This document shows positions 1 to 56,946 of a DNA stretch of 64,000 bases, one piece after another. The position numbers and the translations under genes are program-made. The notes under the pieces were generated by a model, which worked only from the letters and a program-made list of their open reading frames with translations, was not told the origin of the DNA and ran no database searches. Every line of letters begins with the position of its first letter. The first letter of the stretch is position 1. This stretch comes from Loxodes magnus (taxonomy: Eukaryota > Ciliophora > Karyorelictea > Loxodida > Loxodidae), in the NCBI GenBank assembly GCA_946699065.1, contig CAMPDV010002032.1, positions 1 to 64,000 on the forward strand, in the 5' to 3' direction.

Positions 1-1760
1 AGATAAATTAAGACTAAATATTTTACAAAATGCATCTTTTTATCAGTTTTCCAAACAAAAGTTAATTACAAAAGATAGTTAATAAAAATGAATATATAAA
101 TATAATTTAAATTTATGAAAATTATAAATAATCTAAAAGTCTAGCTTATTTTAATACCTAAGTTTCAATTAATTCTATAACTATCTATATTTCTTTTTAT
201 ATTTAATCCTTTGTAATAAGATTAATAAATGATTATGTGCTAAGCAAAACATGTAGAATTGTTTATTAGGAACAATAAGATATAGAATAATAGTAGACTA
301 ATAAAATTTGTTAAGAGTAAATAATAATCTGTTAGATTAGTTTTAAAATAACTTATACTAGCTAATATAATACTTATATTATCTCATGCTACAAAGAAGC
401 ATGTTATGTTAAGTTTACTCTTTCTATTAATTCAGAAAATAATAATAGAATATATTTAAAATATGTTTTCTTTCTTAAAAAAGCTTATAATTTTATTAAT
501 ATCAAACAACTTATTTTAATAAAGAGAGTATTAATAGTGATAACTATGCTTTTTAGATTTGTATATAATATAGAATTAAGTTTTTATCTTTAAATAATCT
601 AGAATAATTTAGGTATTATTAATTTGAATGATAATTACAAAAATAACATAAATAATAAATATAATATTAGTTTGCTATAAAAAGAGAAAGTTATCTAAAT
701 GTATTAATTATAACTAATCTAATATCTTTATTAATTAAAGAGAAATTAATTAATAACTAATAAAGCTAAAAGGATAAAATATTAAGTATTTAATATACAT
801 AATTAAACATATTAAAGCTTATTTTAATAAAATTAAATATTACTATTTAATAATTGTAAGATATAATTAGTGATACACCATTTATAGTTAGTTTAAATAT
901 TTACTTTCTACTACTTATATTTATTACATTTATATATTTTGCTTAGAATCAACATTAAAAGTAATAAATTATATTAGTTTATTATTATAAGAGATATCTT
1001 TATAAATAAAAAGTTTTAATGAAATAGTAGTAAGAAAGTGGATAATTAAAAGAATTTATCTTTATAAATACTAAAAATGTTTTTTTTTAAATAATTTGAT
1101 GTTTTTTTAATCTCTATTCAAACTAATTAATAAGAAACTTATTTTATTTCCTTTTTTCCTTTTTTCCTTTTTTCCTTTTTTCCTTTTTTCCTTTTTTCCT
1201 TTTTTTCCTTTTTTCCTTTTTTCCTTTTTTCCTTTTTTCCTTTTTTCCTTTTTCCTTTTTTTCCTTTTTTTTAATTAGTAAAACGCTTAATGAAATAATT
1301 TTTTGATTAAATGTAAGTGAAAAATAATAATTAATAACAATAGTTTTTTAAAAAATGGTAATATTTTATTTATCATTTATAAGGGTCTACAACGAAATAA
1401 GGTTTATTTATTAAGAGTTTTTTATTTAAAGCACAAATAAGTTGTAATTAATAAATGCATATTAAAGTTATTATAATAAGGATATAATTCTTCGTTATAA
1501 AACTTTTGATATAATAATTTATCCTTTTATTTAAAAGTAAAAAAATATAAAATAATTAAAATTGAAAAAGTTTGTACACTATTAGTTTAATATCTCGTCT
1601 TGTTTTAAGACAAAATAGAATTAATAAATCAATGTTTTAGAAGATATTTTTAAATATGCTTAATAAATAATTTAATTGTTTAATTTTATTGAAATTAAAT
1701 CAGTAAAATTTATTGAGCTATTTTAATTAAATATTTATTGAAGTAAGTTATAAAAAATAA
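1..1760 (+). other. AT-rich upstream region of WD40 gene A, no gene recognised
   Basis: This stretch has long AT-only runs, the CCTTTTTT array and no recognisable protein motif in any frame. It is strongly conserved in blocks B, C and D, which may reflect recent duplication rather than function. A promoter for the WD40 gene is presumably here, but no specific element can be named. Confidence 0.5.
1150..1272 (+). repeat. Homopyrimidine minisatellite, (CCTTTTTT) x about 15
   Basis: There are fifteen CC dinucleotides, nearly all spaced 8 bp apart, on one strand upstream of WD40 gene A. The same place in block B (22630-22646) has only two units, and blocks C and D have a plain T-run or A-run. 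The expansion is therefore specific to copy A and probably recent. Confidence 0.9.
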
Positions 1761-2847
1761 ATGGAGAAAAATTAAATGGAGAAAAAAGAAAAGCAATTTA
1801 CTAAAAGTATTTTTTTAAGAAAACTCTTAAGAGCGAGAAACCACATTCTAGGGAAAGTATCTCTACTTCATTTTAAGTATGAAATTCTGCCCAATTTATG
1901 CTACTAAAAGCTAATAAACAAGATCAGTTATGACCAAAGTAAAGGTATTTCTTTAATATTTTTTAGACTAAATCCTTACTGGTCACACTTCACGTGTTTG
2001 GTCGGTAGCCACATCAAGTGACCTGAATTGAATTATATCAGGTTCAGGAACTCCTGAAAATTCGATAAATATCTGGAATTTATAGACTGGTTCTCTCATA
2101 AGAACTTTAACAGGAAATACTGGCTCAGTTTACTCGGTAGTAATCTCCCCTGACTCTAACTATATCGTATCAGGATCTGAAGACACAACTATAAAGATCT
2201 GAAACTTATAGACTGGTGCTCTCATAAGAACTATAACAGGACATACTTCATATGTTTTATCGATAGTAATCTCCCTTGATTCTAAATGTATTATATCGGC
2301 ATCTGGTGACCAAACCATAAGGATCTGAAATTTCCACAATGGTATTCTCATAAGAACTATAACGGGACATACTTCTATAGTTAGATCGGTAGTAATCTCC
2401 TATGACTCTAGATATATTATATCGGGATCTGGTGATAACACTATAAAGATTTTGGATTTCTAGACTGGTCAGCTTGTGCGAACTCTTACTGGGCATTCAG
2501 AATTAGTTTTATCGGTGATAGTGTCTAAGGATAATAGATATATAGTATCTGGTTCTCGGGACAGTACTATTAAGATATGGGACTTCTCTTCTGGTTAGTG
2601 TATTCGTACTCTTTAAGGTCATGCAAGAGGTGTATCAAGTATTCAGTTAAGTGTTGATTCAAGTGTTATATTTTCTGGTTCATGGGATAAAACAATCAAG
2701 ATATGGAACTTTGATAAGGGTGAGTGTATCTAGACTTTGTAAGTTCATACAAGTTCAATAGAATCTATAGCATTGAGTGTTGATAATAGATGGTTGATAT
2801 CGGGAGGATATGACAAGACGATAAGAAAGTGGAGGGTTTCGAGTTGA
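1761..2847 (+). CDS. Seven-bladed WD40 protein, copy A (one 22-nt intron)
   Basis: Read with TAA/TAG = Gln and TGA = Trp, this is a 354-residue protein. Exon 1 (1761-1944) gives a basic N-terminus of about 60 residues. A 22-nt GT..AG intron (1945-1966) joins it in frame to exon 2 (1967-2847). Exon 2 has seven WD40 blades, each with G-H-T, S-G-S-x-D and I-K-I-W signatures; several of the motif Trp codons are TGA. The last blade ends K-W-R-V-S-S then TGA (2845-2847). That TGA is kept in all four copies, and the sequence after it carries a frame-breaking 2-nt difference in copy C, so I take it as the stop. Two in-frame ATGs lie 15 bp apart (1761, 1776). The protein is probably a binding scaffold; no enzyme domain is seen. 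The residues expected on the propeller's top face vary between blades and copies. Confidence 0.85.
1945..1966 (+). other. 22-nt spliceosomal-type intron in WD40 gene A
   Basis: The segment starts GTATTT and ends TTTTAG. Removing it joins the exon 1 frame (ending S-Y-D-Q-S-K) to the WD40 frame as K-D-Q-I-L-T-G-H-T. The equivalents in B (23306-23327) and D (56741-56762, minus) are also 22 nt. In C (43620-43640) it is 21 nt, yet the spliced frame is the same length as in A and D. A length change tolerated only if the segment is removed supports splicing. Confidence 0.75.
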
Positions 2848-4782
2848 GTAACTTATGATTTGACTTAATTTAATTTTACGATTAAAGATATAAGATATTG
2901 GTGATGCATTTAAATGAATGTTTAATGTTAATAATGTTTTAGTTTTATGAAGTGCTTGTTTTTTATTTATTTATTTAAAATTTGTATATTCTTAAATATT
3001 CTTGGTTTAAAATAAAGGTTGAGTAAATAATATAGGTTATTAAATTAGTGAGGTATGTTGATTTAAAGTGGGTAATGTTTAAAAATATAAAAATATAATT
3101 TTGTTAAATGAAAATGTATAATAAATTTAAGCTTAATTTTATTCTATAAAATTTTATAGATTTATTTTTAGATTTTGCAAAAATTTAAAGTTAAGTAAAA
3201 ATTTTAATTTTTTTTGTGAAGTAATTAAAATATTATTTATAAGGTTAAAGTTAGTTTATAATTCTGATTATTAATTAAAAAATTTAATTAAGTATTGTAT
3301 TTATTTTATTTTAAATTTTGTTTTTTATTATTTATTTTTTACGATTGATATTTAATATTGATTATTATTATAATTAATTAAAATTAATTATTAGTTATTT
3401 ATTATAATTATTAATTTTAATATTTAAGTTTAATATTTTTAGTTTCCGATTGGAAAATTAATTTTTCCGATGGTAAGTTTTTATTTTTCAATTTTCGAGT
3501 ATGGATTTCATGAAAATAAAAAAATTTGTTTCTTGCTCAGCGTTTTACACTACCAAAGATTTTTGGAACGGAATAAATTTAATTATTTCGGGATAAAAAT
3601 TGTGAATAGTAATAATTTTTTTATTTCGGAATAAAAAATTTTAAAATTGGAATAAAAATTTTGAAAGTAGTTTTTAAAAAAGTTTTTAAAATTTCTTAGA
3701 AAAGCGTTTCTAAAATAATTTTGAAAATAGTTATCTAAAATCGTTTTGGAAATAAAATTTGGAAACTAATTTTAAAAATCTTTGAATTGATTTTAAGGAA
3801 TTGTTTTGAAAAATTTTTTTTGATAAATATTTCTGGGACGGGATACATTTTTTTTAATATGTAAAAAAGGGTATTTTTTTTAATAGAATTAAACTAAAAA
3901 AATTTGAATTTTTGGATGCTAATTTAATTTTTTAAGTTATATGTTAATAAATATAATTAAATATGTTTATTCTTGTGTTTAAGTTCAATAATAAATTTTA
4001 ATTTTAATGTTTAATATGTTTCGTTTTCGATTGGAAAATAAAATTTTCTGATATTAGGTTTTTTATTTATCATTATCTTTCAATTTTAGAGTTTAAATTT
4101 CATGAAAACAAAAAATTTGTTTCTTGCTCAGCGTTTTACACTACCAAAGATTTCTGGGATGGAATAAATTTTTTGATTTCGGGATAAAAAATCCTAAATA
4201 GGAATAAAATTTCAAGAAAAAATTCCAAATATAAACAATTTTTGAGAAAAAAATAGGAATTAAAAAAAATTGTATATTAAAATAGAATTTGGAAATTTTT
4301 TTTGTTGAAATGGTATTTTGTAAAAATAAAATCATTTTTTTGTTTTTGGTAAATTTTTTTATTTGAAAAATTTTTAGCCAAATTTTTTTGTTTTTGATTT
4401 AAAAATATATTTAAATAAGGTAAATTATTTTTGAAATGATAAAAAAAATTATTGCTTATGCTTTGGAAAAAAATACAATTTTTAATTTTTAAATTCTTTT
4501 CGAGTAAATGAAAAAACTCGCTTCAAAAATTTTTAATATTATAAGAGTTTACTTAAATGAAAAGGATCTCAAGAAAAAAGGGGATATAATAAAATAAACC
4601 ATTAAATTGTGAAAAATTGTCCTTTTTTCGCTCTGAGTTATTCGCTATAAAAGATTTTCGGGATGGATAAATCCTTTTCTTAAAGGGATAGAATTTTAAA
4701 AGATTTGAAAAGTTTTCTAAATAACCTTTAAGAAGTAATTATAAAAAATAAATGACAATTTTAGGAAGAAATAAAATCAGTA
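2848..4782 (+). repeat. Non-coding 3' region of WD40 gene with internally repeated motif
   Basis: A segment of about 120-150 bp occurs twice (about 3440-3600 and 4018-4200). Both copies contain TTTCTTGCTCAGCG then TTTTACACTACC and AAAGATTT, followed by a GGAACGGAATAAA or GGGATGGAATAAA stretch. Weaker versions lie at about 3828-3850 and 4630-4695. The block is kept in B (about 24,715-25,960) and, inverted, in D (54,600-55,300). It is richer in G+C than its surroundings. Its function is unknown; a regulatory element or a decayed transposon end are both possible. Confidence 0.6.
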
Positions 4783-4795
4783 AAAACAATTTTTC

Positions 4796-5113
4796 ATTTT
4801 TTAATTAATTTCAACTAAAAAGGTTTTGGACCGGAAACTCCTTTCCGATTGCAAGACCCGATGCTCTCTTTTTATGGAATAACGGGGATATCCTGTTGTG
4901 CTCCAGGCACAGCTGATAGGGAGCTCCATCGCTATGAGCAGCCAGGCTTCAAGCCCCTACCAAGAGCGGATAATCTCAAAGACAGTGTTCCCTTCAGAAA
5001 ATGACTCTGAGCAGGGACTTTCTCAGCGACAGGAAAGGAACTTGTTCCTAGCCATAAAACCAGAAAGTGTTGTCACGAAGGTCATTCTCAGCTCCGACAA
5101 TCTTTTCAACTAT
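4796..5113 (+). mobile_element. 318 bp GC-rich SINE-like element, copy in block A
   Basis: This is an island of near-balanced base composition in very AT-rich DNA. It is flanked by a 13-bp direct repeat (AAAACAATTTTTC at 4783-4795 and 5114-5126). Block D has the uninterrupted target once, so this is an insertion with a target-site duplication. Inside, GCTTCAAGCCC (4946-4956) fits the RNA polymerase III B-box consensus in 10 of 11 positions, and TGGAATAACGG (4875-4885) fits an A box in 10 of 11. The ends resemble each other only weakly as inverted repeats. A SINE moved by a LINE is the best reading. The long frame across it is probably not a gene, because the C copy has single-base indels. Confidence 0.75.
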
Positions 5114-5126
5114 AAAACAATTTTTC

Positions 5127-6604
5127 TATAAGAATGCTTAAAACTAACTTTTTAATAGATATTGCGAATTTTAAAAAATAACTAATATGAAAAGAGCTAA
5201 AAAATCTCTTTATAAAAATATGATCAATCAAATAGAAAAAATTAGGTACAATACATCTGTAATAATAAATTTTAGGCCAATTTACAAAGAATCTAAAAAA
5301 AGTAATTAAACAAGGATCTAAATAATATATCTAACCTAACTATATAAAATATAGAAACAAAAATTTATTAATCAAGTTTAAAAATATTCTGCTTTATTAT
5401 AATAATTAGAAAAACATTAAAAATCGAAAAGATGAATAAAAGAGTTTTGAAAAGAGCTTACTATGACTAACTATCTGTTTTTAGTTTGCAAAAATATGTT
5501 AATTTAGAAGAGAAAAACGAGTTTTTAAGAAAAATTGTTATATTAAGTATTTTTTCTCATTTCGTAATATTAAAGAGTAGCTTTAAAGATAAGCTTTCTG
5601 ATTTAAAGCAACTTGAATATATCTACTATGTATATAGAAAATTGATTTTATTTATTAATCTTAAAATTTGAATTTCTATTGAAGCTATTTTATTAAAGTT
5701 GAAAGCTTTGCTAAAAAAATTGATTGGTTATTTAACATAAAAAACATTTGCTAGTAAACTATATAAATAATTTGAATATATGCAAAATAATAAAAATCTT
5801 CACTTTCTTGTAAATTATCTTATATTTCCATCTAAAATAAGAATAAAATGATATTCTAATATTAAATAATAAGAATTAGCAAAATGAAAGTGTAAATAAT
5901 TAAGAATTCAATATAGTTTTCATTATATCAAAAAAGGTTAAAAGAAAAGCTTTAATCTTTTGTATTAATTAAAATAATATACAAAGTGTAATTTAATAAC
6001 TATTATAATTATATCTATAAAAAATGGCAAATATTTCGTACAATATAAAAAGAAACATATATAGCATAATAAAAGCAAAGTTTCTACTAAGCCGATAATG
6101 CTAATAGTACACAATTTCATAAATAACCTTAAAATTGAGCTATTTTTGTTATATGCTAAATTATTAGACAACTAAATTATAATTTATAATTTAAGCATTC
6201 CTTTAATAAATGTTTGATTTAATATACAATATAGTATTTTTTAATTTAAGATACTAAATATTCATAGACATAAAAACATTTAAAGTGGTTTAATAAATAG
6301 GATTTTTAAAAGATTAAGCACTTATTTAAATTTAAAATATCTTATCAAGAAATTAAATTAAAATGTTTTCATATTCATTTTATAATTAAAAATAGTCATT
6401 ATTTTTTGTTCACTGATCTATTTTATTTATATTTTAAAGATAGTAATTATATTTATTCATAAAGTATGATATCAACTAAAAATTGCTAGATTATTTAAAG
6501 ATAAAAACTTAATTCTTAAAATAATTCTTTAATAAGATAAACAGTAATAAGATTTTATTATAGCTTAAAATTAAATTTTTTCTTACAAATTGATTTATAA
6601 AACA
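5127..6604 (+). other. AT-rich stretch between SINE and LINE-1, no gene recognised
   Basis: The sequence is conserved in block B (26,382-27,860) and inverted in block D (53,050-54,520). Short charged frames are visible, such as one at 5486-5671, but they carry no motif and the copies differ by indels. I do not call a gene. Confidence 0.4.
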
Positions 6605-7840
6605 AAACTTAATTTTATATGAGATTAATTGAAGATGTGCAAGAATTGGAGGAAATATAAAATAAATAGGTTATAAGATGCAATATATCGTCAAAAATAT
6701 TTAGAATATTTTCCTGCAAACTTATCTAGAATTCTTTTAGATAGATTAAGATAATCTTGAAGTTTAATATGAATTTATCAAAAATAACATATAATACAAT
6801 GTTGATTAAACATTAGGATCCTTTATTCCAGACAAGTTATAACAAATTTCCTCGAGATTTTATTAAGAAATATGCAGGTCTAAAAGGGCTAACTTAGTAT
6901 ATAAAGAAGCATACATTATATCTGGAAGAATAAGCTAATAAGTTACTAATCTTCATGAAAAAGTGAAACGACATTCTGAATAACTTCAAGTCTAATTTGT
7001 GAAAGTTTGAAAAAAAAGCAAAAAAGAAACTTTTACTTCTAAATGGAGATACTAAAGAAATATTTTCATATACTAAGAGAATTAAAAAGCCTAAAAAATA
7101 AATTAAATGAATTTTAATTCTAAGATTAGTACAAATTAAAATTATTTTACTAAATATATAAGAGACAAAATACAATAATATTTCTATAATACAGCTACTC
7201 AAAAGTTTAAGAGAATGAAAAAGCTAAAATATATACTGAACAGTTTAGTAATCTTAACCAATTTCTAGTAATTAATTACATTAAATTGAACAAATAATTT
7301 AGACAAGAAATTATCAGTATATATAAGCTTAGAACCCAATCTTATAATTTTCGAAAATATCTTTAAGCTTGTCATTATCCTATTGATAATCCCTACTGTA
7401 TGTGTAGAGAGTATGATACATTTGAGCACATTTTTAAATGCATATACTATTCTAATATAAGAGATTGACTATCGTAAAAGATTGTGAATTATGACTTAAG
7501 ATGCTTTATATTATATGATTAAGGACTTATAAACTTCTTTCCTAAGTCTTATTTGGGATATTTAGATTTATAAATAAAAGTATTTCACAAGAAACTTATA
7601 TCAAGAAGATTAGAATTATTAGAAATGGAAAAAGTAAAAAAGGAAGAAATAAAAGAGAGACTATAACAAGAGTAATTAAAAATTGATGAGATCAAGATTA
7701 TAATTAAAAAGCATTAAAAACATTTACTAATGTCTATAATTGAAGGAAGCAATTCATGCAGTTATAGATGTCAAAAAACTCTTTTAATTTAAAATTTAAA
7801 TAAACAGTTTCGTGCAATAACTCTTTTACTAAAGTGAAAT
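6605..7840 (+). mobile_element. LINE-1 fragment in block A: 5'-truncated, RT domain deleted
   Basis: With UAR = Gln and UGA = Trp this encodes the pre-RT linker and then the C-terminus of a non-LTR retrotransposon ORF2. The linker has R-L-Q-D-A-I-Y-R-Q-K-Y and F-I-K-K-Y-A-G-L-K-G. The C-terminus has a CxC..H..C finger, Y-C-M-C-R-E-Y-D-T-F-E-H-I-F-K-C at about 7386-7435, and a charged tail. The reverse transcriptase between them is missing: block D carries about 1.65 kb more at this point, including the A-D-D motif. The deletion joint has short AATT-type microhomology. The reading frame shifts several times, so this is a dead copy. No endonuclease domain lies upstream. Confidence 0.75.
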
Positions 7841-9959
7841 ATTATTACTAAATAGCTTTAATTTATACCATTTATTTTTATAAATAAATATTAAAATTTA
7901 AATTTAAATTCTAAAAACTAATTAAATTGCTAATGAAGCCATTTAAAGAAATCTCTATTCAACTATAATTAATAAAACATAGATAATATAAAGGAAGAAA
8001 TATCTAAAAGGAGTTTAAGTTCTAAGTAAGCAAAAGGAAACTTTAGCTTTATTACTTTAATAATATAAAATTCTAAATAATAGCAAAATATAGTTTAAAA
8101 TAATCCTTTATAATAGTAAGATATTAATATTAAAAATACTATATCAAAAATCTAAAATAATTCAATAATTATATGCTAGAATTAATTATCTTTGTTTAAT
8201 TCAAAACTAATAAAGAGGATGCTTTTCATAATTTTGATAAGAGTTTAAATAATTGGTTAACATTAAGCATTTGATTACTAGATTATAAAAATATAAAGGT
8301 TCACATTTGATAATTAATGTCTACAATAATTAAAACAATAATTTAATTAATTAAAAAGTAAATATAGTTAAACATACCTTTAGAGATAACTGTATAAAAT
8401 AAAATTAATAAAGAATTATCAATAATTATAAATTTAATGAATGTATAATTTTTAGTTCTAAGTAATATAAGTAATTATAATAATAATCTTAACTAACTTT
8501 TATTATATTTTAAAGTTAAGTATAAATTATTAATTTATATAAATTTAATTAAACTTATTATGTAAAATTAATTATTTATAATTGTCAGTTAAATAAATTT
8601 AAATATAAGCCATTATTATTAATTTGCTAATAAAAGAAAATTATACTTACATAAAATATTTAACTATAATTAAATTACTTTATTTCTTTTATTTAAAAAC
8701 ATATTTTAACTAAAACTATTCTTTAATATTTAAATTACTAAATGATTAAATTTTATTTTCCTATCATTTTTATTATTTATATATATATCAACAATTATAT
8801 TAGAAAATTTTCATATTTTAGCTTAAAAATAATAAAATAAATTATAATTATTAAAATAATTTATTTTAATTTTAAAAATTAATAAATAAAAAATCTTATT
8901 TACTATTTAAAAGTTTAATCAATAAATCATAATAATAAACTATAAGAGTTTAAATATTTTGAGTATTGAGACATAATTGTATAATTATTGGCATTTAACC
9001 AGGCAAATTACGCTAAATTTAAAAGTTTATATATTTCATTCATTGTTCTCTTTCACTCTCATCTTGATAAAGAATTTTTTAGCTCATTAAATCTGTTAAT
9101 AGGTTTTTAATATAATCTATTTTCTCTTGACTCTAGTTCTTAAAAATCTTTGATGGTCTTCTAAATATTATTGATGAAATATTTTTATGTACTTATCTAA
9201 TTTAATTATCTTATATTTTGTAAACTATTTATTAATATAGTTTTAGTCATATAAAACAAGTCTTTTACACTATTTTCATTAATTATTTTAAGTTTATTAA
9301 AAAATTTTAAATATTTGTAAAAAATTACACTTGAAAATGTACTCAAATATATCAAATTCCTATCTACTTAAGCAAAGTTTATTGAATTGAGTTTTGATAT
9401 ATCGATGATTCAGTTCATATTTAAAATTATAAATATAAGTAATTAATTTTTAGATTGAAATAGTTTTTTAAATTAGATGTCTATTGTATTTAGCGTATAT
9501 TATTAAAGAGTAAACGTTTTATATATTTTTTATTAAATCAGCAAATCTTTTTGCTGTTGATATGACTTTATTTCTTTAAAGGCAATCTTAGAATAAACAT
9601 GTTTATTTAAATATTGCTATGCTTATTAAACTCTTTGAAATCATCAATTATAATAACTATTTGCAAATATTCATAATTAAGCAAGGTTTCGATTATCTTG
9701 ACATTTCTTAATTTTTAATAAATAGATATCTTACTTCAAATTTATTTCTTCGCTCTGATTTTGAGATTAAAGATTAAATGATGTAATTTTTATCTTTTTA
9801 CTAAGTAGAATTATTTTTGTTAAATTGGAGCTAGCATTGCTGATATTATAATGAAAGGTAAAAATCAACTATTATTCCCAACACTAGTGCAATATTTAAT
9901 GACTTATAGATAGCTAATCTAAATCTTTCTCTTACACATGTTGTTCTTAAATTTAAATT
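7841..9959 (+). other. AT-rich spacer between convergent LINE-1 and LINE-2 fragments
   Basis: No gene motif is seen. The sequence is shared with block B (29,086-31,207) and inverted in block D (48,125-50,180). It is probably the 3' untranslated DNA of the two convergent LINE copies, perhaps with older insertions. Confidence 0.4.
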
Positions 9960-12018
9960 TAACTAAAAGAGTCTTGAGACATCTTTTCATTGTTGGAATT
10001 ACTTCCTTCAATTAAAGATGTTATAATTTTTTTTAAAGTTTTTCAACTCAAACACTTCCTACTTCATCTTCTTCTTCAGCTTTATTATCTTCGTTATCAG
10101 TTTATTCATTCTAATCTTCCACTTGCTCATCTTTTTTTTTCGTTCTTCTTTTCCTTCCTAATTTTCATTATTCTCTTCATCTTTATCTTGCTCTTTCGCT
10201 TTTTTACCCTTAGTCTCAGAATTTTCTTATTATAAGTTTTTTTCTAATTCAAATAATTCTAATCTCCTTTTAAGTAACATCCTATGGAAAATTTTAATTT
10301 GTAGATCAATGTATTCTAATTTGTTTTTTGGAAATTAATCGATATAATTTGGTCATAGGTTATTAATTTTCTAATGTCGCATTTTCCAATTTTTGCTATT
10401 AACCATTCTCGCATATCTATATAGCAATCGCATTCTAGAATATGTTCAAATTAATCAAATCTCCGCATATACAATGGGAATTCTCAACTAAATAATGTCT
10501 GTCTTAAAGATCCTTGCGAAAGTTGAAACTTTAGGTTCTGAGTTTGTATATACTAATTATTTCTTTTCGATACTATTTATTTAGTATTGGATAGGTAATT
10601 TACGGGAATTATTATTATTATTCTAATTATTCTATAAATAACTTTGCAGTGGGCATCCTTTTTAGTCTTTAATAGTTACTTCATAAAATTTATGTTGAAT
10701 CTTAATTTTAATATATTTTGTAAAAGTATTAAAGCTACTATTATATTCCTAATTATTAATATCTATTTCGTAACTTTCAGATAGTTTTGTTGCTTAATCT
10801 CTATATTAATATCCTTCTTACCAATTGTTCTTAAAAAGGGAATTACTTATTAATTAATTCTTCCAAACTACGCGTGAGTTAATTTATATACTTGATTAGC
10901 TCTTTTAACTTCAATATACTTCTTTATGAGGTCTTTTGTAAGTTTATTATATTTAGAGTCTGGAATAAATGAACCTAATATTACATCTGCATTATATTAT
11001 ATATTGCGTTTAATACATTAGTATTAATCCTCTAAATTATTCCTATCAGATTAAAAAAATTCATTATAAGTTTCAAAAAAAGATTCTTAATATTTTTATC
11101 TGTCAATAGGGTCTTGCAGCCTGCTAATTTTATATTTTCTTTAGGTAATTATGTCCAAATAGAGAATTGTGTTGAAGAGAAAATTTACCATATTTGGTAT
11201 GTAGTCAGTAAATAGTTGGTTATAATGAGCCTAGAAGTTTTCAAATTAATTAATATTCAGGTGATTGTTTATTACAATATAGTCATTGCAATACATAAAA
11301 TCTGTTCCTTTATGTATGCAAATGTTGCTGTTCATATTATTTACTATTCAAGATACTTCTGAATAATAAATTCCTAGAATCTGTTTGTATTATCATAGTC
11401 ATTATTAGGATTATCTCCATAATCTTATAGAGGAGCATTGAAATCTCCCATTAGAATATGTGGGCTATTTGGGAATTGATTAAGTAGCAAATTAATATAG
11501 TCATATGCTTGGTCTTTTATGTTCTCATTTTAGCTATTATCTGGCATGTAACAGGACGTAATAAATATATTATCTAGTTTGGCTATGATAAATCGATTCT
11601 AGGATACATCAATAATATTAGTTTCTTCAATACTACTAAGTTCTTCTTAAATAACTAGACATACACCTCCTCCTTTTCCTGAATTTTTGTAATAAGTCCT
11701 ATAACCTTATATTAATATTGAATGGAAATCTTGTTTTTACCAAGTTTCATTAATTGAAAAAATGTCAATACTATTTTCTCTTATGAATTCTTCTACTTTA
11801 TATAGTTTACTTGCTAATCCATTTATGTTGACATATCCAATCTTAATTTGATTGATGCTACTTCTTTTTTAGTGATTATCTTGATTTAAAATAATTTGTT
11901 TTCCTTATTGATTTAGTTAAAAGTCTCCTTTCCACCCAGGTTCATAAATTAAAATTTCTTTTTTTTATTCACTGATTTCAAGATGAACTTATTTTTTAAT
12001 GTTATTTATTTTAGTCAT
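9960..12018 (-). mobile_element. LINE-2: AP-endonuclease domain, linker and C-terminal finger, RT missing
   Basis: Reading the minus strand from an ATG at 12018, the protein begins M-T-K-I-N-N-I-K-K. It shows the APE-type endonuclease motifs in order: N-I-N-G-L, S-I-N-E-T-W (catalytic Glu), C-Y-M-P-D-N-S, M-G-D-F-N-A-P (about 11431-11452), then D-F-M-Y-C-N-D-Y-I and F-T-D-Y-I-P. A frame change falls near 11345. The pre-RT linker (R-L-Q-D-P-I-D-R-Q-K-Y) runs straight into post-RT sequence (K-R-M-P-T-A-K-L-F) and a C-terminal finger (C-x-C-G..F-E-H-I-L-E-C) with an acidic tail. The polymerase is therefore deleted. An almost identical, further truncated copy is at 46,672-48,125. Confidence 0.75.
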
Positions 12019-13550
12019 AAAATTAAATTATAATATAGAGATATTTTCTGCTATATATCTTTAATAATCTCTTATCAATGTTAATTTTAACTACTTGACT
12101 GTCAATCTATCCTTTATCAAGTTCCTATCAAGTAAAAATTATCTGTTTTAAATTATAGTTTATAAATTAGTTCTTCTTCAAAAGTTAGATAATATAAAGT
12201 CTCTTAGCTATTTTGAATTAACATTGTAATTTTTTATGAAAGCCTAATTTTCTTCCATTTTATTGGTATGTTATTTAGTAGATGGAAAATATGGATCTGG
12301 ATATTTTCTCTTTAATTAATTTATAGAATCTTATTCCAAAGAATTTCTTAAGTATCCTATTTTAGATTTTATGAATGAGAGTTGTTGAAAATCTAAAAAG
12401 ATTATTCACAGAATTTTATGGATAGAAATGTTAAATTGGAAGAAATTTACTACTTAAAACTTTGGATCTATTTCAGATTTTCCATTAAAGTACATTTTTC
12501 TGATGCAACTTTATCAAAAGCTTTGATTTAATTGATTAGTTGCTCATTTAGTTTATCATATTATTTCTACAATTTTATGTATTTAGAATCAATAAAATCG
12601 CACTAAGAAATTTAATCCAAATATAGTAGGTCTGTTCCAGTAGCAGTATCTAAAGTCAAAGTAGCTTTTTGAATTTTTTAATCACTGGATTAAATTTCAA
12701 GCTGTGTGTAATCATTCTATAGTTAAGTTATTTTTTTATATGAAAGAATTTTTAAATTTTTGTATATATTTATTTTTTTACAAATGTAATTAACTTAATA
12801 TGCTTTAATAATCCGATTCTTTAAGTTATAGATTCTATTAAAGATTATTACATAAATCCTATTTTTAAGAATATTTCTTTTCTCATTCAAATTTCAAAAT
12901 TTAAAGTTAGCTTTATAATATTTATACTTAATCAGTTACTTTTTAATTTTAAGATTTCAATTATTAATTATAATTAAAAATATAGTTTAATTCAAGTTCA
13001 ATATTATCAAACTTCTTAAAGTAGTTACCAAATGTTTTGTTATCCAGAAAATTACTATTAGTAGAATGAAATTTATTATTTTAAATATTCCTATTTTGAA
13101 TATAATAATGATTCTTCAGTTTATGTTTGATCCATTTCTAATTTATCTATTGCATATACGCTTCTTAATTTATAAAATCTCTATTGTTAGTTTAAGTTCT
13201 TTATTCAATACATTTTATTATAAAATCTGTTTAAACAGTTATCTCTTTAGAATTGACATAAGTTGTTAATACTGATTATTCGTGAACTCTTATTTACTAT
13301 TTGGATTAAAATGAAAACTAATTCCTCTCAAATTTTTATTGAAAAATGTTCTAAAGTAGTTATTAATTATATTTTACTAAAGAAAGATATTATTTATAAG
13401 TAGCATTATCTAATGAAATTGTTCAGTTTACTCTTCTACTTTAAAATTATTAATAGGTTATTTTTATCTGTTATAATATTTAATTATTTTTTCAATAGCT
13501 TTTCCTAATAATATTATAAGTCAAATTAAATAAGTGTTAAAAAAAAAAAA
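12019..13550 (-). other. Possible coiled-coil ORF1 upstream of LINE-2, then AT-rich spacer
   Basis: On the minus strand at about 12,290-12,690 one frame reads as a Gln/Lys-rich amphipathic helix (K-Y-I-K-L-Q-K-Q-Y-D-K-L-N-E-Q-L), as expected for a LINE ORF1 just 5' of the endonuclease ORF. Other frames in the same place also look protein-like, so the frame is not secure. From 12,700 to 13,550 I see only AT-rich sequence. Confidence 0.3.
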
Positions 13551-23136: not shown

Positions 23137-24205
23137 ATGGAGAAAAAAGAAAAGCAATTTACTAAAATTATTTTTTTAAGAAAACTCTTAAGAGCGAGAA
23201 ACCACATTCTAGGGAAAGTATCTCTACTTCATTTTAAGTATGAAATTCTGCCTAACTTATGCTACTAAAAGCTTATAAACAAGATCAGTTATGACCAAAG
23301 TAAAGGTATTTCTTTAATATTTTTTAGACTAAATCATTACTGACACTTCAGCTGTGTTATTGGTAGCCATATCAATTGACCTGAATTGAATTGTATCAGG
23401 TTCAGGATATCCTGAATGTTCGATAAGGATCTGGAACTTCCAGACAGGTGCTCTCATAAGAACTATAACAGGACATACTGATTATGTTAACTCGGTAGTA
23501 ATCTCCCCAGACTCTAGCTATATAGTATCGGGATCTGAAGACACAACTATAAAGATCTGAAACTTATAGACTGGTGCTCTCCAAAGAACTTTAACTGGTC
23601 ATACTTCTACTGTTTGATCGGTAGTAATTTCCCCTGACTCTAGCTATATTGTATCGGGATCTTATGACACTACTATAAAGATCTGAAATTTCCACAATGG
23701 TGATCTCCAAAGAACTTTGTCTGGGCATACTTCATATGTTATATCGGTAGTAATCTCCTATGACTCTAGATATATTATATCGGGATCTGAAGATACAACT
23801 ATAAAGATTTGGGATTTCTAGACTGGTCAGATTGTGCGAACTCTTACTGGGCATTCAGACTGAGTTAGATCGGTGATAGTGTCTAAGGATAATAGGTATA
23901 TAATATCAGGTTCTGTTGACAGTACTATTAAGATATGGGATTTCTCTTCTGGTTAGTGTATTCGTACTCTTTAAGGTCATGCAGGTGGTGTACCAAGTAT
24001 TCAGTTAAGTTTTGATTCAAGTGTAATATTTTCTGGTTCAAGGGATAAAACAATCAAGATATGGAATTTTGATAGGGGTGAGTGTATATAGACTTTACAA
24101 GGGCATGCAAGAGGAATATATTCTATAGCATTGAGTATTGATAATAGATGGTTGATATCGGGAGGATATGACAAGACGATAAGAAAGTGGTGGGTTTCGA
24201 GTTGA
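23137..24205 (+). CDS. Seven-bladed WD40 protein, copy B (one 22-nt intron)
   Basis: The protein has 348 residues. Exon 1 is 23137-23305, the intron 23306-23327 and exon 2 23328-24205, ending K-W-W-V-S-S then TGA. It differs from A by a single start ATG (the 15-bp duplication is absent) and an in-frame 3-bp deletion in blade 1 that removes the G-H pair (T-D-T-S-A-V instead of T-G-H-T-S-R-V). No frameshift is present. The H-T-x-x-V-x-S residues by blade are SAVL, DYVN, STVW, SYVI, DWVR, GGVP and RGIY. The W of STVW is TGA at a site where gene C uses TGG. Role as for copy A: a binding propeller with a diversified face, ligand unknown. Confidence 0.85.
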
Positions 24206-26037: not shown

Positions 26038-26050
26038 AAAACAATTTTTC

Positions 26051-26368
26051 TTTTTTTAATTAATTTCAACTAAAAAGGTTTTGGACCGGAAACTCCTTTC
26101 CGATTGCAAGACCCGATGCTCTCTTTTTATGGAATAACAGGGATATCCTGTTGTGCTCCAGGCACAGCTGATAGGGAGCTCCATCGCCATGAGCAGCCAG
26201 GCTTCAAGCCCCTACCAAGAGCGGATAATCTCAAAGACAGTGTTCCCTTCAGAAAATGACTCTGAGCAGGGACTTTCTCAGCGACAGGAAAGGAACTTGT
26301 TCCTAGCCATAAAACCAGAAAGTGTTGTCACAAAGGTCATTCTCAGCTCCGACAATCTTTTCAACTAT
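26051..26368 (+). mobile_element. SINE-like element, copy in block B
   Basis: Same element, same site and same 13-bp flanking repeat (26038-26050 and 26369-26381) as in block A. The sequence is almost unchanged, with a few substitutions. It was inherited through the A/B duplication, not inserted independently. Confidence 0.75.
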
Positions 26369-35430: not shown

Positions 35431-36590
35431 TGCTTAATGATATCTTTAAAGCTCATGATGGAAAAACTGAAGCTGATGTCTATTTAGTGCTCGTTTTTTA
35501 ATTACCAGAAACAGACGTAACATTACAAACGGGAATTGTACCTATTTGTATTGTAGAACAAATAATTGGGTCTGGATGAAGTGTGTAAATTAGCGAGGTG
35601 TTTTAGGATTATTACCTTGCAGTATAATTAATAATGCATTTTGGAGAAAGAAACATCCTGAGAACTAAAACTGATTAAAATCATCTTTCTTACATCTAGA
35701 GCCTGATGCATAGAATAAGTTTTTAAGATTAGAGGGGAAATAAAAGATATATGCTCTTGAAATGGTTTAGTCTTACCTAGCATGTATTCATGGTACTTTA
35801 ATGGCTTATTATAGATCAGGAGAAGACAAATATTAAACCTATATATTGGCTATGATAAACACTGTATAAATAATTCTAAGAAAATAATCCGTGAAAGTTA
35901 CAAACTTGGTAAGCTTTTAGTAGAAATTGTAAGGAATATAGCTATTGGAAGAATTGATGATGAAAAGAAATAGCTCTCTTGAAGCAGCTTTAAAGTATAG
36001 AGATTATATAAATTTTCTTCATCCTAGTGACTATGACTTCATACTTTATAATATGAGAAATTTTGAAATAGCAAAGCATTCTTAAATAACTGACTTATGG
36101 TGTTTTGTCTATGGTTTATTTTTTACTTATCAATAAAATATAACAGTTGATGGATTATCTGACTAAATCCTAAGAATGATTTGGGTAAGATTTGCTAGAA
36201 ATATTCCAAGTCTTTAAATGAAAAGCATATTTGAAAGAGACTAACTGATTGAATATTTACAAGAAAAAGTATAAAGTTCAGTGTAAAATACGACAATAAG
36301 CTGAAATTTGTATTAAGTTGCTTCAAAACAGTATTTTAGAGACCGTGAAGAATGCCTAGCTTATATGCTACTTAGAAGAATTTATCTTTAGTAAGGTAAA
36401 ATTGTAAAAATTTGAATGGAATTACTATTCCATTTTTAACAATCTTTCCACGTGTGAAAAGCTTCTTAAGTGATGCAGGAGTTACCGAATTTATTCTAGG
36501 AGCTAGTAAATTTAATAGATGTGCTGTTTGAACAGGAGAGTGGATGCTTAGATTAGTATAATAAAGTGCTCCCATACATCTTTAGATTAA
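35431..36590 (+). CDS. Unrecognised protein-coding-like region
   Basis: A first frame from an ATG at about 35,431 reads M-L-N-D-I-F-K-A-H-D-G-K-T-E-A-D-V-Y-L. From about 35,760 another frame stays plausible to 36,590 (for example I-T-D-L-W-C-F-V-Y-G-L-F-F and F-R-D-R-E-E-C-L-A-Y-M-L-L-R-R). The DNA is less AT-extreme than its surroundings, and several Trp would be TGA. The change of frame near 35,750 needs a frameshift or a small intron. No domain is recognised; most of it looks helical and soluble. It could be a decayed gene. Confidence 0.3.
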
Positions 36591-36736
36591 AAAATACACT
36601 AAAATACTTAAAATGTTCTTAGTACTTAATAAATTGAATAAGAAAAAGTAAATCAAACTAAATAAATGTTAAATATTTATCATATCTTAAGATCTCCCTT
36701 TTCAAATCAAATTTATACAACTTAAAATAGCAAAGA

Positions 36737-37340
36737 ATGAAAATTATTTTTTTGGCTTGCTAAAAGATTGAACTGAAAAAAATATTCGAGCTATCTAAGA
36801 GAAAATTAGATGGTTGTAAAGAAGAAAAACCTACGCCACCTTTAGGAATCAAATTTATTTTACTTATAATTGCAAGAATAGTTTCTTAAAATAGCGCAGT
36901 ATATGAGGTTTTCAAGGAAAGATTTCCTAAGCTTAACAGTTACGATATGAATTGGAGAAATAGAAGCAAATCAAGTAAAGAATAAGTAAGTCTTATAGCA
37001 ATGTAATTAGGATAAACTACAAGAACAAATCAGAATTTATAGAAAAAATATATAGATGAAAGTGAAGAAAAGCAGGAAGAATATAAGAGGAAACGTAAGA
37101 AGAAATCGAGCTTATTCCTTCAGAAAAAGCTATTCAAATAGTAGTATCTTCGACAAGAAAAAGAAATAATATAGGAACAAATGGAAGATGAGGCAGGATA
37201 TCCTATATGTTTTACATCTTTCTCATAAATTTAGAAAGATACTTTGCATGGTGATCAACGTAATTTGAAATGTGAAATAAGTTTATAGAATTTTAGTATT
37301 TTCCTCTTTGTGGAAAGAAACTTAAAAAAGACTTTTAATT
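36737..37340 (+). CDS. Unrecognised charged protein, about 200 residues
   Basis: From the ATG at 36,737 one frame gives M-K-I-I-F-L-A-C-Q-K-I-E-L-K-K and then F-K-E-R-F-P-K-L-N-S-Y-D-M-N-W-R. A strongly charged helix follows (D-E-S-E-E-K-Q-E-E-Y-K-R-K-R-K-K-K) and a Cys/His-containing end (P-I-C-F-T-S-F, H-G-D-Q-R-N-L-K-C) that loosely recalls a zinc-binding fold but lacks a full RING pattern. The end is set where composition returns to background; no TGA stop was found. The frame is uninterrupted, which in this code is weak evidence by itself. Confidence 0.35.
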
Positions 37341-38640
37341 AAACTATCTATCTTTAATTTTTATATTCTAAAACTAATTGCAAGCTCTTAATGAAGCAAT
37401 ATTAAAAGCTAAAATTAATTAAGATTATTTACTTTAACATATTTAATTTAATAATTTAATTTAAAATAAAATTTAGTTTTCAAAACTTAAAATAAAAAAT
37501 GTTTAAGATGCTTTCTTAAAAGCAATAATATTTAGTAAGCTTATTTGAAAACTAAATTTTATTTAAAAAGGTTAAATCTAATAATTAAATGATTTTAAAT
37601 TATTAACTTTATAAAATTTTAAGTTTTTTCTAGTTTGGATAATTATAAATTACATCTATTTACATGAAATTCAAAAAATACCAAACATCCAATAGGGCTT
37701 CTTTACTACCTCTTCAAAGATAAAAAGGAAGAGAACAAGCGAGATGCCATTTCTTCTAACCTCACGTCTTTGCTTTATTAGATTAACCTTTTGATTAGAA
37801 AAAAAACTTAATAATGGATCTAACAACTTCCAAAGCCGAGTAAACGACAGAAACAAACTTGGTAAACTCCAAACACGGAAGAGAGGTCTCGAAGGCAGTA
37901 GGAGATGGTATTGCGTGACTAGGAACGATCCTTTGGCTTTAACTCTTAGCAATTTGATGTAGCGTAGTTTGCATTAAGGGTGGTGAACTTCAATGAAGAG
38001 GTTTAAAAGTTGAAATACTAGAACAAAAAGCTAATTTTCAAGCCACAAAGAAAAGAATTAAATGGATGGGGATCGTATAGATGACTATGAACGCTAAATA
38101 GATGCGTTCTTCAACATTCAATACCATTAAGATAAGAATAAAACTTAGCTGAATGATTAAGTATTGAAATAAGAATAGAAAATTCAACTCTTAAAAGAAT
38201 CAAGAATGGAATAGCTAGATACTGGATCGATCTCAATGGTCGCCAAACCCTAAGCTTAACCTCGAATGAGACTAATTCCGATCAAGAAGAGATACTTTCG
38301 CTGCTAAAACCAATAAAAGCTATATCGGAACTGTAAGAAGTTTCAATAGAAATAAAGAGATTTCTGATAAGCAAAGCGAACATAAAAAATTGGGCTGAAT
38401 AAGATTTTTTGCAATAACAATGGAAGTACGTACAAGAGGAAGAATATGGAGTTATAACAAAGCCCGACAGGAATGTAGAAAGGTAAAACTATTTAAAAAA
38501 ATCGCGGATGGGAACGCGAAATCATAAAATTGCCCCAAACATTTTAACGAACAGCGAGGAGCTTGAAACGCTGTACTTCTTGAAATTCCTTAATAATAGA
38601 GAAACAATTTCATATAATTATAAGTACATGAATTATTATT
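37341..38640 (+). other. Coding-like region with shifting frame (37,660-38,640)
   Basis: After a short AT-rich gap, 37,660-38,640 has balanced composition. It contains protein-like segments in successive frames: a Gln/Arg-rich part (R-R-Q-Q-E-M-V-L-R-D-Q-E-R-S-F-G-F), a coiled coil (D-D-Y-E-R-Q-I-D-A-F-F-N-I-Q-Y-H) near 38,060-38,200, and a helical part (Q-E-E-I-L-S-L-L-K-P-I-K) near 38,280-38,480. It is either a gene with short introns or a frameshifted retroelement ORF1. No family is recognised. Confidence 0.3.
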
Positions 38641-40187
38641 TGATGTTTTATCTAAAATAAATATAAAATCAAATAGTTTCATTTAAATATGCATTTTCTT
38701 CTCATTAATTCCATAGATACTCCAAAAGTTAGAAATTTTTATAAAAAAGAAGGGATTCGATAATACTAATGAAAAGATAAAATTATTAAATAAACTATGA
38801 ATTTTATTTAAACTTAATCATTCGATTCTAGTTGAAAAAAAAACCGGATCTGATACTGAGATAAATAAGATTTTGGCCAAATTTTTCTTGATATAAAAAA
38901 ATGCAAGTGAAAAAATGAGCAAAAAAATAACTTTTCTAACTTTATTAAGCACCATCGTAATTTTTTAATAGAATATGCCAATTTGAAAGAACATAATTTA
39001 AAAATATAAAAAATAGATTAATTTATTAGTGAAGAAACTTAGTTTATTGGAAGATATTTGCTAGAATTAAATTAATTGGAGCCTAAATTTTAAGTAATAT
39101 AATTACGATATAATGAAAGAATTTAACAAGTATAAGATAATATTTAATCAAAAGAATATGATAAAAATTATAAATGACAAAATTTAATAATAAAATTATA
39201 ACATAGAAAAATGTATTGAAACAAATAAAAACTAAATATAAAATTTTACTATTAAAAATATTTAGAATCTAATAATAAAAACTATAAATAAATAAGCCTA
39301 AACAATAAAAATAATAAGAAATTAAAATACTATTAAATAAAATTTAAAATAATTATATAAATTTAATTATTTAATTTATAATTTTTATTAAAATAATAAT
39401 ATTTACTTCTATATATAACTTAAAATTATTTAAAGCTATGTTTAAAATGTTTAAAAATAAAGAAAATTATTTTTTAATCTATTTAATTATATTAAATAAG
39501 TTTGACTATAATTTTTAAATAGGATACATAAATTTTATAATTTCTTTAATTTCTAATTATATCTTAAAATAATATGATATTTTTATTACATTTTTAATCA
39601 TTTTACAAATTAAATATTTTAAATTTGATATCTAAATATTTTTTAATTTATAAAGATTTTGCTAAAGTTTAATGAAAAATTAATTAAAACTATTTTATAA
39701 ATATAAAAAATATATTATTTTAATATATAATAAGACATTAAAATTTTTTATAATAGATAAAAAGAATCCATCCATGATGCAAAATTATTTATTATATTCT
39801 TTATTTACTTTATAATTTCTTGTTTAAATTAATTTCTATAAAATACATTTTTTTATAGTGCTAGTCTCACTTATATTTTAATTTTTATATATATTTGAAA
39901 GTATGATAACCACTTGCTATAATATAATTAGAAAAAAATTATTTTCGATAAAAGTATAAATACTACTTATCAACTTGATAGAGTTTTTAATTGATTACAA
40001 AAAATAACTTTGCAATTAGTTTCGTAGAAAATGTTTAAAAAATTATTTTTAATAGAAAGGGATATTGTAAACTAAATTAAGAAGGGATTTATACTCTATT
40101 GATATAATTTATTTTATAAATAAATAATTTTTTCTTATGTAATTTTAATTATCTATTTTAAGTAAAAAATAGCATTTTCCAATTTCT
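38641..40187. other. Extremely AT-rich spacer
   Basis: Apart from a few mixed-composition stretches near 38,700-39,100, this is almost pure A/T with no recognisable motif or long repeat. Confidence 0.4.
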
Positions 40188-43435: not shown

Positions 43436-44521
43436 ATGGAGAAAAAATAAATGGAGAAAAAAGAAAGGCAATTTACTCAAATTATTTTTTTAAGAAAACT
43501 CTTAAGAGCGAGAAACCACATTCTAAGGAAAGTATCTCTACTTCATTTTAAGTATGAAGTTCTGCCTAACTTATGCTACTAAAAGCTTATAAACAAGATC
43601 AGTTATGACCAAAGTAAAGGTATTTCTTTTATATTTTTAGACTAAGTCATCGCTGGTCACATTTCACGTGTTTGCTCGGTAGCCATATCAAGTGATCTGA
43701 ATTGAATTGTATCAGGTTCAGGAACTCCTGAAAATTCGATAAAGATCTGGAATTTCCAGACAGGTACTCTCCTAAGAACTTTAACGGGACATACTAATAT
43801 AGTTAGATCGGTAGTAATCTCCTAAGATTCAAGCAATATTGTATCAGGATCTTGGGATAACACCATAAAGATCTGAAACTTATAGACTGGTGCTCTCCAA
43901 AGAACTTTAACTGGTCATACTTTATATGTTTTATCGGTAGTAATTTCCCCTGACTCTAGCTATATTATATCGGGATCTTATGACACTACTATAAAGATCT
44001 GAAATTTCCACAATGGTGCTCTCCAAAGAACTATAAAGGGACATACTAATGCAGTTTGGTCGGTAGTAATCTCCTATGACTCTAGATATATTATATCGGG
44101 ATCTGGTGATACAACTATAAAGATTTGGGATTTCTAGACAGGTCAGCTTGTGCGAACTCTTACTGAGCATTCAGACTAATTTTCATCGGTGATAGTGTCT
44201 AAGGATAATAGGTATATCATATCAGGTTAGGATGACAGTACTATTAAGATATGGGACTTCTCTTCTGGTTAGTGTATTCGTACTCTTCAAGTTCACGTAG
44301 ATGGTGTATGCAGTATTCAGTTAAGTGTTGATTCAAGTGTAATATTTTCTGGTTCTGATGATCATCTAATCAAGATATGGAATTTCGATAAGGGTGAGTG
44401 TATATAGGCTTTGTAAGGTCATACAAGTTCAATATAATCTATAGCATTGAGTATTGATAATAGATGGTTGATATCGGGAGCTAATGACAAGACGATAAGA
44501 AAATGGAGGGTTTCGAGATGA
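43436..44521 (+). CDS. Seven-bladed WD40 protein, copy C (one 21-nt intron)
   Basis: The protein has 354 residues. Exon 1 is 43436-43619, the intron 43620-43640 (21 nt) and exon 2 43641-44521, ending K-W-R-V-S-R then TGA. The intron is one base shorter than in A, B and D, but the spliced frame has exactly the length of A and D. Two in-frame ATGs lie 15 bp apart. Hypervariable residues by blade are SRVC, NIVR, LYVL, NAVW, DQFS, DGVC and SSIQ; the residue before the blade Asp is W, Y, G, D, D or N in blades 2-7. The Trp in NAVW is TGG, matching TGA at the same site in gene B. Role as for copy A. Confidence 0.85.
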
Positions 44522-45334: not shown

Positions 45335-45438
45335 ATTATTTATTTTTTATGATTGATATTTATTATTGCTTATTATTATTTATTAATTATAATTAATTAT
45401 AATTAATTAGTATTTATTATTATGAAAAAATATATAAA

Positions 45439-46651: not shown

Positions 46652-46671
46652 ATATATTTTTTCATAATAAT

Positions 46672-55859: not shown

Positions 55860-56946
55860 TCAACTCGAAATCCTCCATTTTCTAATTGTCTTGTCATTAG
55901 CTCCCGATACCAACCATCTATTATCAATACTCAATGCTATAGATTATATTGATCTTGAATGCCCTTGTAAAGTCTATATACATTCACCCTTATCAAAGTT
56001 CCAGATCTTGATTGCTCTATCCAATGATCCAGAAAAGATAACACTTGAATCAACACTTAACTGAATACTTGATACACCACCTGCATGACCTTGAAGAGTA
56101 CGAATACACTAACCAGAAGAGAAGTCCCATATCTTAATAGTACTGTCACCAGAACCTGATATTATATACCTATTATCCTTAGACACTATTACCGATGAAA
56201 CAGAACCTGAATGCCCAGTAAGATTTCGCACAAGCTGACCAATCTAGAAATCCCAAATCTTTATAGTTGTATCACCAGATCCCGATATAATATATCTAGA
56301 GTCATAGGAGATTACTACCGAGTTAACTATATCAGTATGACCCGTTATAGTTCTTTGGAGATCACCATTGAGGAAATTTCAGATCTTTATGGTTTTGTCA
56401 TGAGATCCTGATACTATATAATTAGAGTCAGGGGAGATTACTACCGAGGTAGCATAGAAAGTATGCCCCGTTAAAGTTCTTATGAGAGCACCAGTCTATA
56501 AGTTTCAGATCTTTATGGTTTTGTCACTAGATCCTGATACGATATAATTAGAGTCAGGGGAGATTACTACCGATCTAGCTGAGGAAATATGCCCCGTTAT
56601 AGTTTTTAGGAGAGTACCTGTCTGGAAATTCCAGATCTTTATCGAATTTTCAGGATATACTGAACCTGATACAATTCAATTCAGATTACTTGATATGGCT
56701 ACCGAGTAAACAGGATAAGTGTGATCAGTAAGGACTTAGTCTAAAAAATATTAAAGAAATACCTTTACTTTGGTCATAACTGATCTTATTTATTAACTTT
56801 TAGTAGCATAAGTTAGGCAGAATTTCATACTTAAAATGAAGTAGAGATATTTTCCCTAAAATGTGGCTTCTCGCTCTTAAGAGTTTTCTTAAAAAAATAC
56901 TTTTAGTAAATTGTTTTTCTTTTTTCTCCATTTCTTTTTTCTCCAT
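55860..56946 (-). CDS. Seven-bladed WD40 protein, copy D (one 22-nt intron)
   Basis: The protein has 354 residues on the minus strand. Exon 1 is 56,946-56,763, the intron 56,762-56,741 and exon 2 56,740-55,860, ending K-W-R-I-S-S then TGA. Its length is identical to A and C, with no frameshift. Two in-frame ATGs lie 15 bp apart. Hypervariable residues by blade are YPVY, SSAR, FYAT, DIVN, GSVS, GGVS and RSIQ; the residue before the blade Asp is S, H, G, G, L or N in blades 2-7. The conserved frame in the oldest-looking block, next to heavily frameshifted LINE DNA, argues that the gene is maintained by selection. Role as for copy A. Confidence 0.85.

Follow-up and report, generated by a model that had tools for sequence, protein, structure and literature searches.

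A family of stand-alone WD40 propeller genes with hypervariable top-face codons in the ciliate Loxodes magnus

Loxodes magnus carries about 1,300 copies of a WD40 gene in which the propeller framework is under purifying selection and the top-face residues are more diverse between copies than non-coding DNA. Closely related copies differ by clustered changes, and some copies have lost blades. The family is probably an inherited recognition repertoire whose diversity would be maintained by selection together with exchange between arrays. The gene product would consist of a seven-bladed WD40 propeller preceded by a short helix at its N terminus. Short tracts would be swapped between copies through gene conversion, and each copy would display a different binding surface. 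The propellers may act as intracellular recognition heads on a common stalk; possible targets are proteins of parasites, symbionts or mobile elements, or variants of a host protein.

Gene architecture and family size

The window, a 64,000-nt stretch of L. magnus DNA (assembly GCA_946699065.1, contig CAMPDV010002032.1, positions 1 to 64,000), holds four copies, A to D, each open in frame from ATG to TGA. In copy A (forward strand), exon 1 (1776..1944; 56 codons plus 1 nt) is strongly conserved, the intron (1945..1966; GT...AG) has 22 nt, and exon 2 (1967..2847) encodes seven WD40 blades of 42 aa and ends at the TGA at 2845-2847. Copy B (23137..24205, forward) consists of exon 1 at 23137-23305, an intron at 23306-23327 and exon 2 at 23328-24205; copy C (43451..44521, forward) of exon 1 at 43451-43619, a 21-nt intron at 43620-43640 and exon 2 at 43641-44521; and copy D, on the reverse strand (55860..56946), of exon 1 at 56763-56946, an intron at 56741-56762 and exon 2 at 55860-56740. 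In these genes in-frame TAA and TAG are read as Gln. TGA has two roles: at conserved internal positions it fits Trp, and at the end of the frame it is the stop. We take this to be the karyorelict code (NCBI table 27). The L. magnus genome paper (PMC11441545) gives a macronuclear assembly of 706 Mbp, UGA as Trp or stop, and introns of 19.3 bp on average; the length of the copy A intron lies inside the range reported there. The diversity of that intron (0.035) was the lowest among the regions measured.

Exon 2 of copy A consists of WD40 repeats that form a closed propeller: seven stretches matched Pfam WD40 (E 8.3e-75), and the structure was predicted with a pLDDT of 94.8. Exon 1 was predicted as one helix (pLDDT 90, pTM 0.46). 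Neither Pfam nor PDB sequence comparison revealed an F-box or other known adaptor domain in exon 1, the best PDB sequence match having an E of 0.061, and assignment to the zinc knuckles was rejected (zf-CCHC_4 sub-threshold, 16.2 bits against a cut-off of 27). NACHT was absent from a Pfam search of exon 1 and from the best 25 of 63 families for exon 2, all of which were beta-propeller families. No HET domain matched exon 1 in Pfam, and no signalling domain able to report binding was found. The initial annotation had described the propeller as standing alone without NACHT, which agrees with these searches; the remainder of the gene is the 56-codon exon 1 with its single predicted helix. Weak NACHT-like matches occur elsewhere in the genome (31 places, best E 6.7e-7, e.g. 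C104:483712-484215) and could be other P-loop ATPases.

The assembly searched comprises 705,730,643 bases in 7,843 contigs. Genome-wide, a last-blade pattern was found at 626+668 = 1,294 places with up to 1 mismatch and an exon-1 pattern at 612+648 = 1,260 places with up to 2 mismatches; both reversed controls gave 0. One hundred last-blade places, all exact matches, first in contig order and on 27 contigs, were listed and fetched together with the eight best matches to copy A, which include copy A itself, giving 108 loci, 100 of them picked through an exact 25-nt last-blade match. The gene search gave 103 matches longer than 900 nt, spread over the window and 99 of these loci; the other nine had none. 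One locus (L039, match under 80%) was dropped, leaving 95 distinct gene bodies; four are from the window, and the selection statistics rest on the other 91. Repeat number varies between loci: blades have been lost at 10 of the 108, nine with about six blades and one with about five, and these ten are the nine loci without a match above 900 nt plus L039.

Most sampled copies appear intact. The terminal TGA is present in all 95 distinct full-length copies, and 88 of 102 full-length matches keep the reading frame of copy A, whereas 14 are frameshifted; near-identical copies of A account for several of the 102. Alignment gaps, with insertions relative to A excluded, amount to 0.2-0.5% in exons versus 3-11% in flanks. 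In several close pairs the only differences are substitutions dispersed outside the variable codons, and many of these alter an amino acid. Such pairs would fit some copies drifting as pseudogenes, released from selection.

According to PMC11441545, the published assembly was collapsed for heterozygosity at a 96% threshold and is not phased; near-identical copies may therefore be alleles if they lie on different contigs. Copies sharing one contig are paralogues. By eye, several of the 100 listed places lie near contig ends (C35, C41, C69, C83, C127), a pattern that assembly-breaking arrays or chromosome-end regions would both give; the genome's authors detected no Loxodes telomeres. Contigs C1 and C2, the two longest-numbered, have no copy among the 100 listed places. 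WD40 occurs 0 times in the main text of the genome paper (PMC11441545). Among the open-licence PMC papers listed, none described a hypervariable or diversifying WD40 family of ciliates, and none of the ten listed for Loxodes magnus joined the species with WD40.

Diversity on the top face of the propeller

Variation was measured at 27 codons: H+2, H+3 and H+5 of the seven blades and D-1 of six. In the 91 copies outside the window, piN at these codons was 0.540 and piS 0.359, a piN/piS of 1.51 (bootstrap over copies 1.43-1.58); this and the following ratios are rough, because synonymous diversity is also elevated at the variable codons and the counts are pairwise, not tree-based. The other 259 exon-2 codons gave piN 0.073, piS 0.188 and piN/piS 0.39 (bootstrap 0.37-0.40), about eight of them being invariant by construction because loci were chosen through the exact 25-nt match. 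Exon 1 gave piN 0.033, piS 0.191 and piN/piS 0.17. A ratio near 1 throughout, which would have refuted the initial annotation, was not observed. Diversity (pi) in the non-coding flanks is 0.09-0.19, and the piN of 0.54 at the variable codons is about three to six times higher.

Mean amino-acid entropy was 2.54 bits at the 27 variable codons versus 0.43 at the other 259 (Mann-Whitney p 5.7e-17). Change had been said to be concentrated at the same codons of each blade on the evidence of 28 four-residue strings read at H-T-x-x-V-x-S in the window genes; all 28 are present in the translated sequence, and the entropy contrast confirms the concentration in the 91 copies outside the window. Nor are the variable sites evenly scattered. 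Among the 33 highest-entropy codons, 25 belong to the set defined by the initial annotation, five are D+1 and three are others (2092, 2149, 2623). D-1 is variable, as was claimed, and the list was incomplete: the six D+1 codons are also hypervariable (piN 0.408, piS 0.205, piN/piS 2.0). H+2 is not variable in every blade, its entropy being 0.49 in blade 1 (1990) and 1.29 in blade 3 (2248). The statement that all three positions of the variable codons change does not hold in general, because the third base hardly varies in some blades (1993, 2509, 2629). Near identity of the flanks is true of some close pairs such as A and B, with flanks about 2% different; family-wide, median flank differences are 9-12% and exon 1 differs by 6%.

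In copy A the blade-2 cassette of H+2, H+3, Val and H+5 (2122..2133, forward) covers the d-a loop and the start of strand a, and its equivalents start at 1990, 2248, 2374, 2500, 2626 and 2752. The blade-2 cassette of D-1, Asp and D+1 (2179..2187, forward) lies in the b-c loop, with equivalents starting at 2305, 2431, 2557, 2683 and 2809. When DSSP strand positions of the confident predicted structure were combined with the published loop convention, 24 of 33 variable sites fell in top-face loops. Mean entropy was 1.47 in b-c and 1.30 in d-a loops versus 0.42 in a-b and 0.53 in c-d loops; the bottom-face loops, likewise exposed, are conserved. R1-2, R1 and D-1 are known top-face hotspots of WD40 complexes, and the variable sites coincide with them. 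The proposed top-face location is thus borne out in the predicted structure.

The variable sites are rich in Tyr (12.7% versus 2.4%), Trp, Ser, Gly and Asp and depleted in Lys, Ile and Val. Antibody binding sites have a similar composition. The 95 copies carry 81 distinct 27-residue surfaces, with a median pairwise difference of 21 out of 27.

Exchange between copies, and neighbouring repeats

The movement of diversity was followed in 18 independent close pairs, each having between 1 and 30 differences in exon 2; differences lying within 30 nt were called clustered. Only 3 of 61 isolated differences fell in variable codons (expected 6.9, at 11.3% of sites); with a p of 0.15 this depletion is not significant, and therefore only the lack of an excess is claimed. 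Clustered differences fell in variable codons in 56 of 148 cases. The clusters often include linked silent changes, and single codons are swapped at two or three bases together. The lack of an isolated excess together with the clustering therefore would fit gene conversion plus selection rather than targeted hypermutation. To judge from the sequences, the clusters look like imports of short tracts from other copies and not like local point mutation, but part of the clustering could reflect successive selected substitutions, and multi-base codon changes are counted as clusters.

Other comparisons bear on exchange. Twelve-base cassettes are common to blades 2, 3 and 4 in the sampled copies (12-24% of cassettes); sharing of these with blades 1, 5, 6 or 7 was not seen in the sample. 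Linkage disequilibrium among common exon-2 sites falls from an r2 of 0.12 within 6 nt to 0.02-0.03 beyond 24 nt (null about 0.01). Similarly low values in the flanks (0.02-0.06 beyond 24 nt) mean that exchange extends beyond exon 2, and an exon-2-specific recombination hotspot was dropped from consideration. When only pairs with a similar flank on the upstream or the downstream side were considered, exon-2 divergence showed no clean excess. Copies A and B diverge mainly from about 1975 to 2780; outside exon 2 the difference stays at 0-4% in most 100-nt steps as far as about 8.7 kb, in a profile whose exon-2 and 3.3-4.2-kb values are inflated by extra repeat alignments. Compared directly, A and B differ by 43% at the variable nucleotides, 8.5% at other exon-2 sites and about 2% in the flanks. 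The segment exchange and repeat shuffling suggested by the initial annotation are in keeping with the clustered differences and with blade loss at 10 of 108 loci. In a separate pair of loci about 128 kb apart on C294 (L107 and L102), the aligned exon 2 is identical and the flanks are 2.4% different, as recent gene conversion would leave them.

WD40 units also form giant arrays. A Pfam WD40 search of the genome gave 98,918 loose candidates; 150 were scored, and every one listed was above the cut-off. The candidates are arranged in long arrays, for example on contigs C1503, C119, C9, C1832, C272 and C620. Pieces at C1503:16500-17800, C119:732300-732960 and C272:335240-335900 consist of 126-bp tandem units that are 94-95% alike. 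Each piece keeps the frame throughout, and TGA codons occur at some of the Trp or variable positions. These units represent two other WD40 families, without a blastn match to the window gene (E up to 1e-5). The unit patterns occur 523+3,522 = 4,045 and 88+1,964 = 2,052 times, with controls of 0. At five codons (H+2, H+3, H+5, D-1, D+1) the per-site difference was 0.182 versus 0.030 elsewhere in the first family (14 units) and 0.356 versus 0.019 in the second (4 units); agreement with the variable codons is partial and the sample tiny, since in the first family H+2 hardly varies and H+39 and H+40, which lie outside the five, match the most variable positions. The C17 array, at listed positions 35,509 to 47,227, advances in steps of 126 or small multiples, 93 unit lengths in register. 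The C9 array also has steps of 125, 127 and 191, so not all giant arrays keep the frame. The arrays may be giant genes, satellites or donors of blades.

Several repeats surround the window genes. A and B lie in a common unit (1251..9958 around A) made of the WD40 gene and downstream DNA, 96% alike from 3353 on. Downstream of copy A, a LINE endonuclease remnant occupies 11332..12177 on the reverse strand (Exo_endo_phos E 3.9e-12, Exo_endo_phos_2 E 2.4e-8), and upstream of copy A a microsatellite of TTTCCTTT units spans 1147-1270. An element of about 320 nt, GC-richer by eye, occurs at 4789-5113, 26047-26368 and 45005-45333 in copies 91-99% alike. The element (near 4850-5110 in the first copy) was rejected as part of the WD40 system and treated as a separate repeat because a 29-nt pattern of it occurs at 3,913 places genome-wide and Rfam gave no match. 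It is possibly a repeat of SINE-like or non-coding RNA type.

Alternative explanations and relation to known systems

The strongest rival holds that the family consists of adaptors or scaffolds, e.g. ubiquitin-ligase substrate receptors, whose diversity arose through ordinary neofunctionalisation and which have no part in immunity or in telling self from non-self. Many WD40 proteins do contact partners through the same top-face residues, and the conserved predicted helix of exon 1 could dock to a common complex. Exon 1 lacks an F-box or known adaptor domain, although a divergent adaptor is possible; about 1,300 copies with 81 surfaces in 95 exceed the diversity known for adaptors, and non-synonymous diversity at the surface is above non-coding diversity, so that we consider this explanation unlikely. 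It is still less likely that the exposed loops merely diverged under relaxed constraint as in ordinary paralogues, or that the family is decaying in a satellite-like manner. The giant arrays do behave like satellites, 14 of 102 matches are frameshifted, and close pairs gain amino-acid changes outside the variable codons. Relaxation alone is nevertheless insufficient, because a piN of 0.54 exceeds the non-coding 0.09-0.19 and so lies beyond its reach; furthermore, the bottom-face loops are exposed yet conserved, and exon 1, the intron, the frame and the stop are all conserved.

The gene might also be cargo of a mobile repeat unit with LINE-related DNA, its variation serving the element, e.g. 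in evading host control, since the window copies lie in common units of about 10 kb that contain such DNA. We regard this as very unlikely: the unit boundaries vary (homology of B starts at 21840, that of others extends further), LINE-related domains number thousands genome-wide (PMC11441545) and outnumber the WD40 copies, and an unsystematic look found no transposition feature of the WD40 unit. Least credible of all, and very nearly discounted by us, is targeted hypermutation by a process like that of diversity-generating retroelements or deaminases. The heavy change at fixed codons of each blade would suit it, as would the abundance of reverse-transcriptase elements in the genome (PMC11441545) and the endonuclease remnant in the window. 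Against it, isolated differences show no excess at variable codons, and the differences found there are multi-base, clustered and often accompanied by linked silent changes. Diversity-generating retroelements vary fixed codons of a binding scaffold whose framework is conserved, and are marked by a template repeat, a dedicated reverse transcriptase and adenine-specific changes. Loxodes variation is similar in its fixed codons and conserved framework and differs in the behaviour of isolated changes.

An inherited recognition repertoire therefore remains our preferred reading. We infer the recognition role itself, which may lie in defence, symbiosis, mating or control of mobile DNA, and some 1,300 loci in one genome would fit an inherited repertoire better than a single polymorphic mating or allorecognition locus. 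Fungal NLR genes that govern non-self recognition are the best-known case of hypervariable WD40 surfaces shaped by diversifying selection. The trait of fungal HNWD, HET-D and HET-E genes is control of incompatibility or cell death upon recognition of a partner. According to PMC1805685, the HNWD/NWD genes of Podospora anserina (HET-D, HET-E, HET-R) form a family of 10 NACHT proteins with positive selection at codon pairs 7/9 and 25/27, around the conserved 8 and 26. These pairs match H+3/H+5 and D-1/D+1 of the Loxodes genes, and the 26 codons equivalent to the selected set of HET-E gave a piN/piS of 1.77 (bootstrap 1.68-1.88; pairwise counts, not tree-based), in line with the HET-like pattern that the initial annotation had pointed out. 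As in HNWD genes, WD40 repeats are kept alike by exchange, repeat number changes and variable sites lie atop the propeller. Unlike the HNWD genes, the roughly 1,300 Loxodes genes each encode a stand-alone propeller plus a helix, most sampled copies are seven-bladed, and cassettes are shared only among blades 2-4 in the sample. The Loxodes family is not placed in the fungal HNWD family because NACHT and HET were not found. HNWD repeats are defined by internal conservation of over 85% identity over 100 aa; the blade arrays of the window genes show 78-81% matches over about 3.2 units, counted in nucleotides and not amino acids. By this analogy the Loxodes gene appears to work like the sensor part of HNWD receptors. 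The initial interpretation as a whole is partly supported.

Other systems offer looser parallels. Highly-Repetitive WD40 proteins, with high internal identity and diverse hotspots, are reported from prokaryotes, protists and fungi (Hu et al. 2017, PMC5587647). The giant Loxodes arrays, 94-95% alike between units, fit that description. The survey deals with single proteins, its available text describes no family of the Loxodes copy number, and the word 'ciliate' is nowhere in its main text. Brown algal ROCO genes are reported as candidate immune receptors with exon shuffling (PMC11378527) and are, like the Loxodes genes, candidate receptors diversified outside animals, plants and fungi; unlike these GTPase-linked, exon-shuffled genes, each Loxodes gene has one intact propeller exon with codon-level variation.

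A broader and more tentative possibility is a genome-scale recognition system that evolved independently of NLRs, with over 1,000 inherited propellers bearing antibody-like surfaces and with the giant arrays, which vary at the same positions, as possible further repertoires or blade donors. If the recognition reading is true, the convergence would be striking: the same codons as in fungal NLRs would have been used without the NLR part and in about a hundred-fold more genes. Recognition or immunity in a single-celled predator would become directly testable, and more than 1,000 natural variants of one propeller framework would form a data set from which the specificity of WD40 top faces may be learned.
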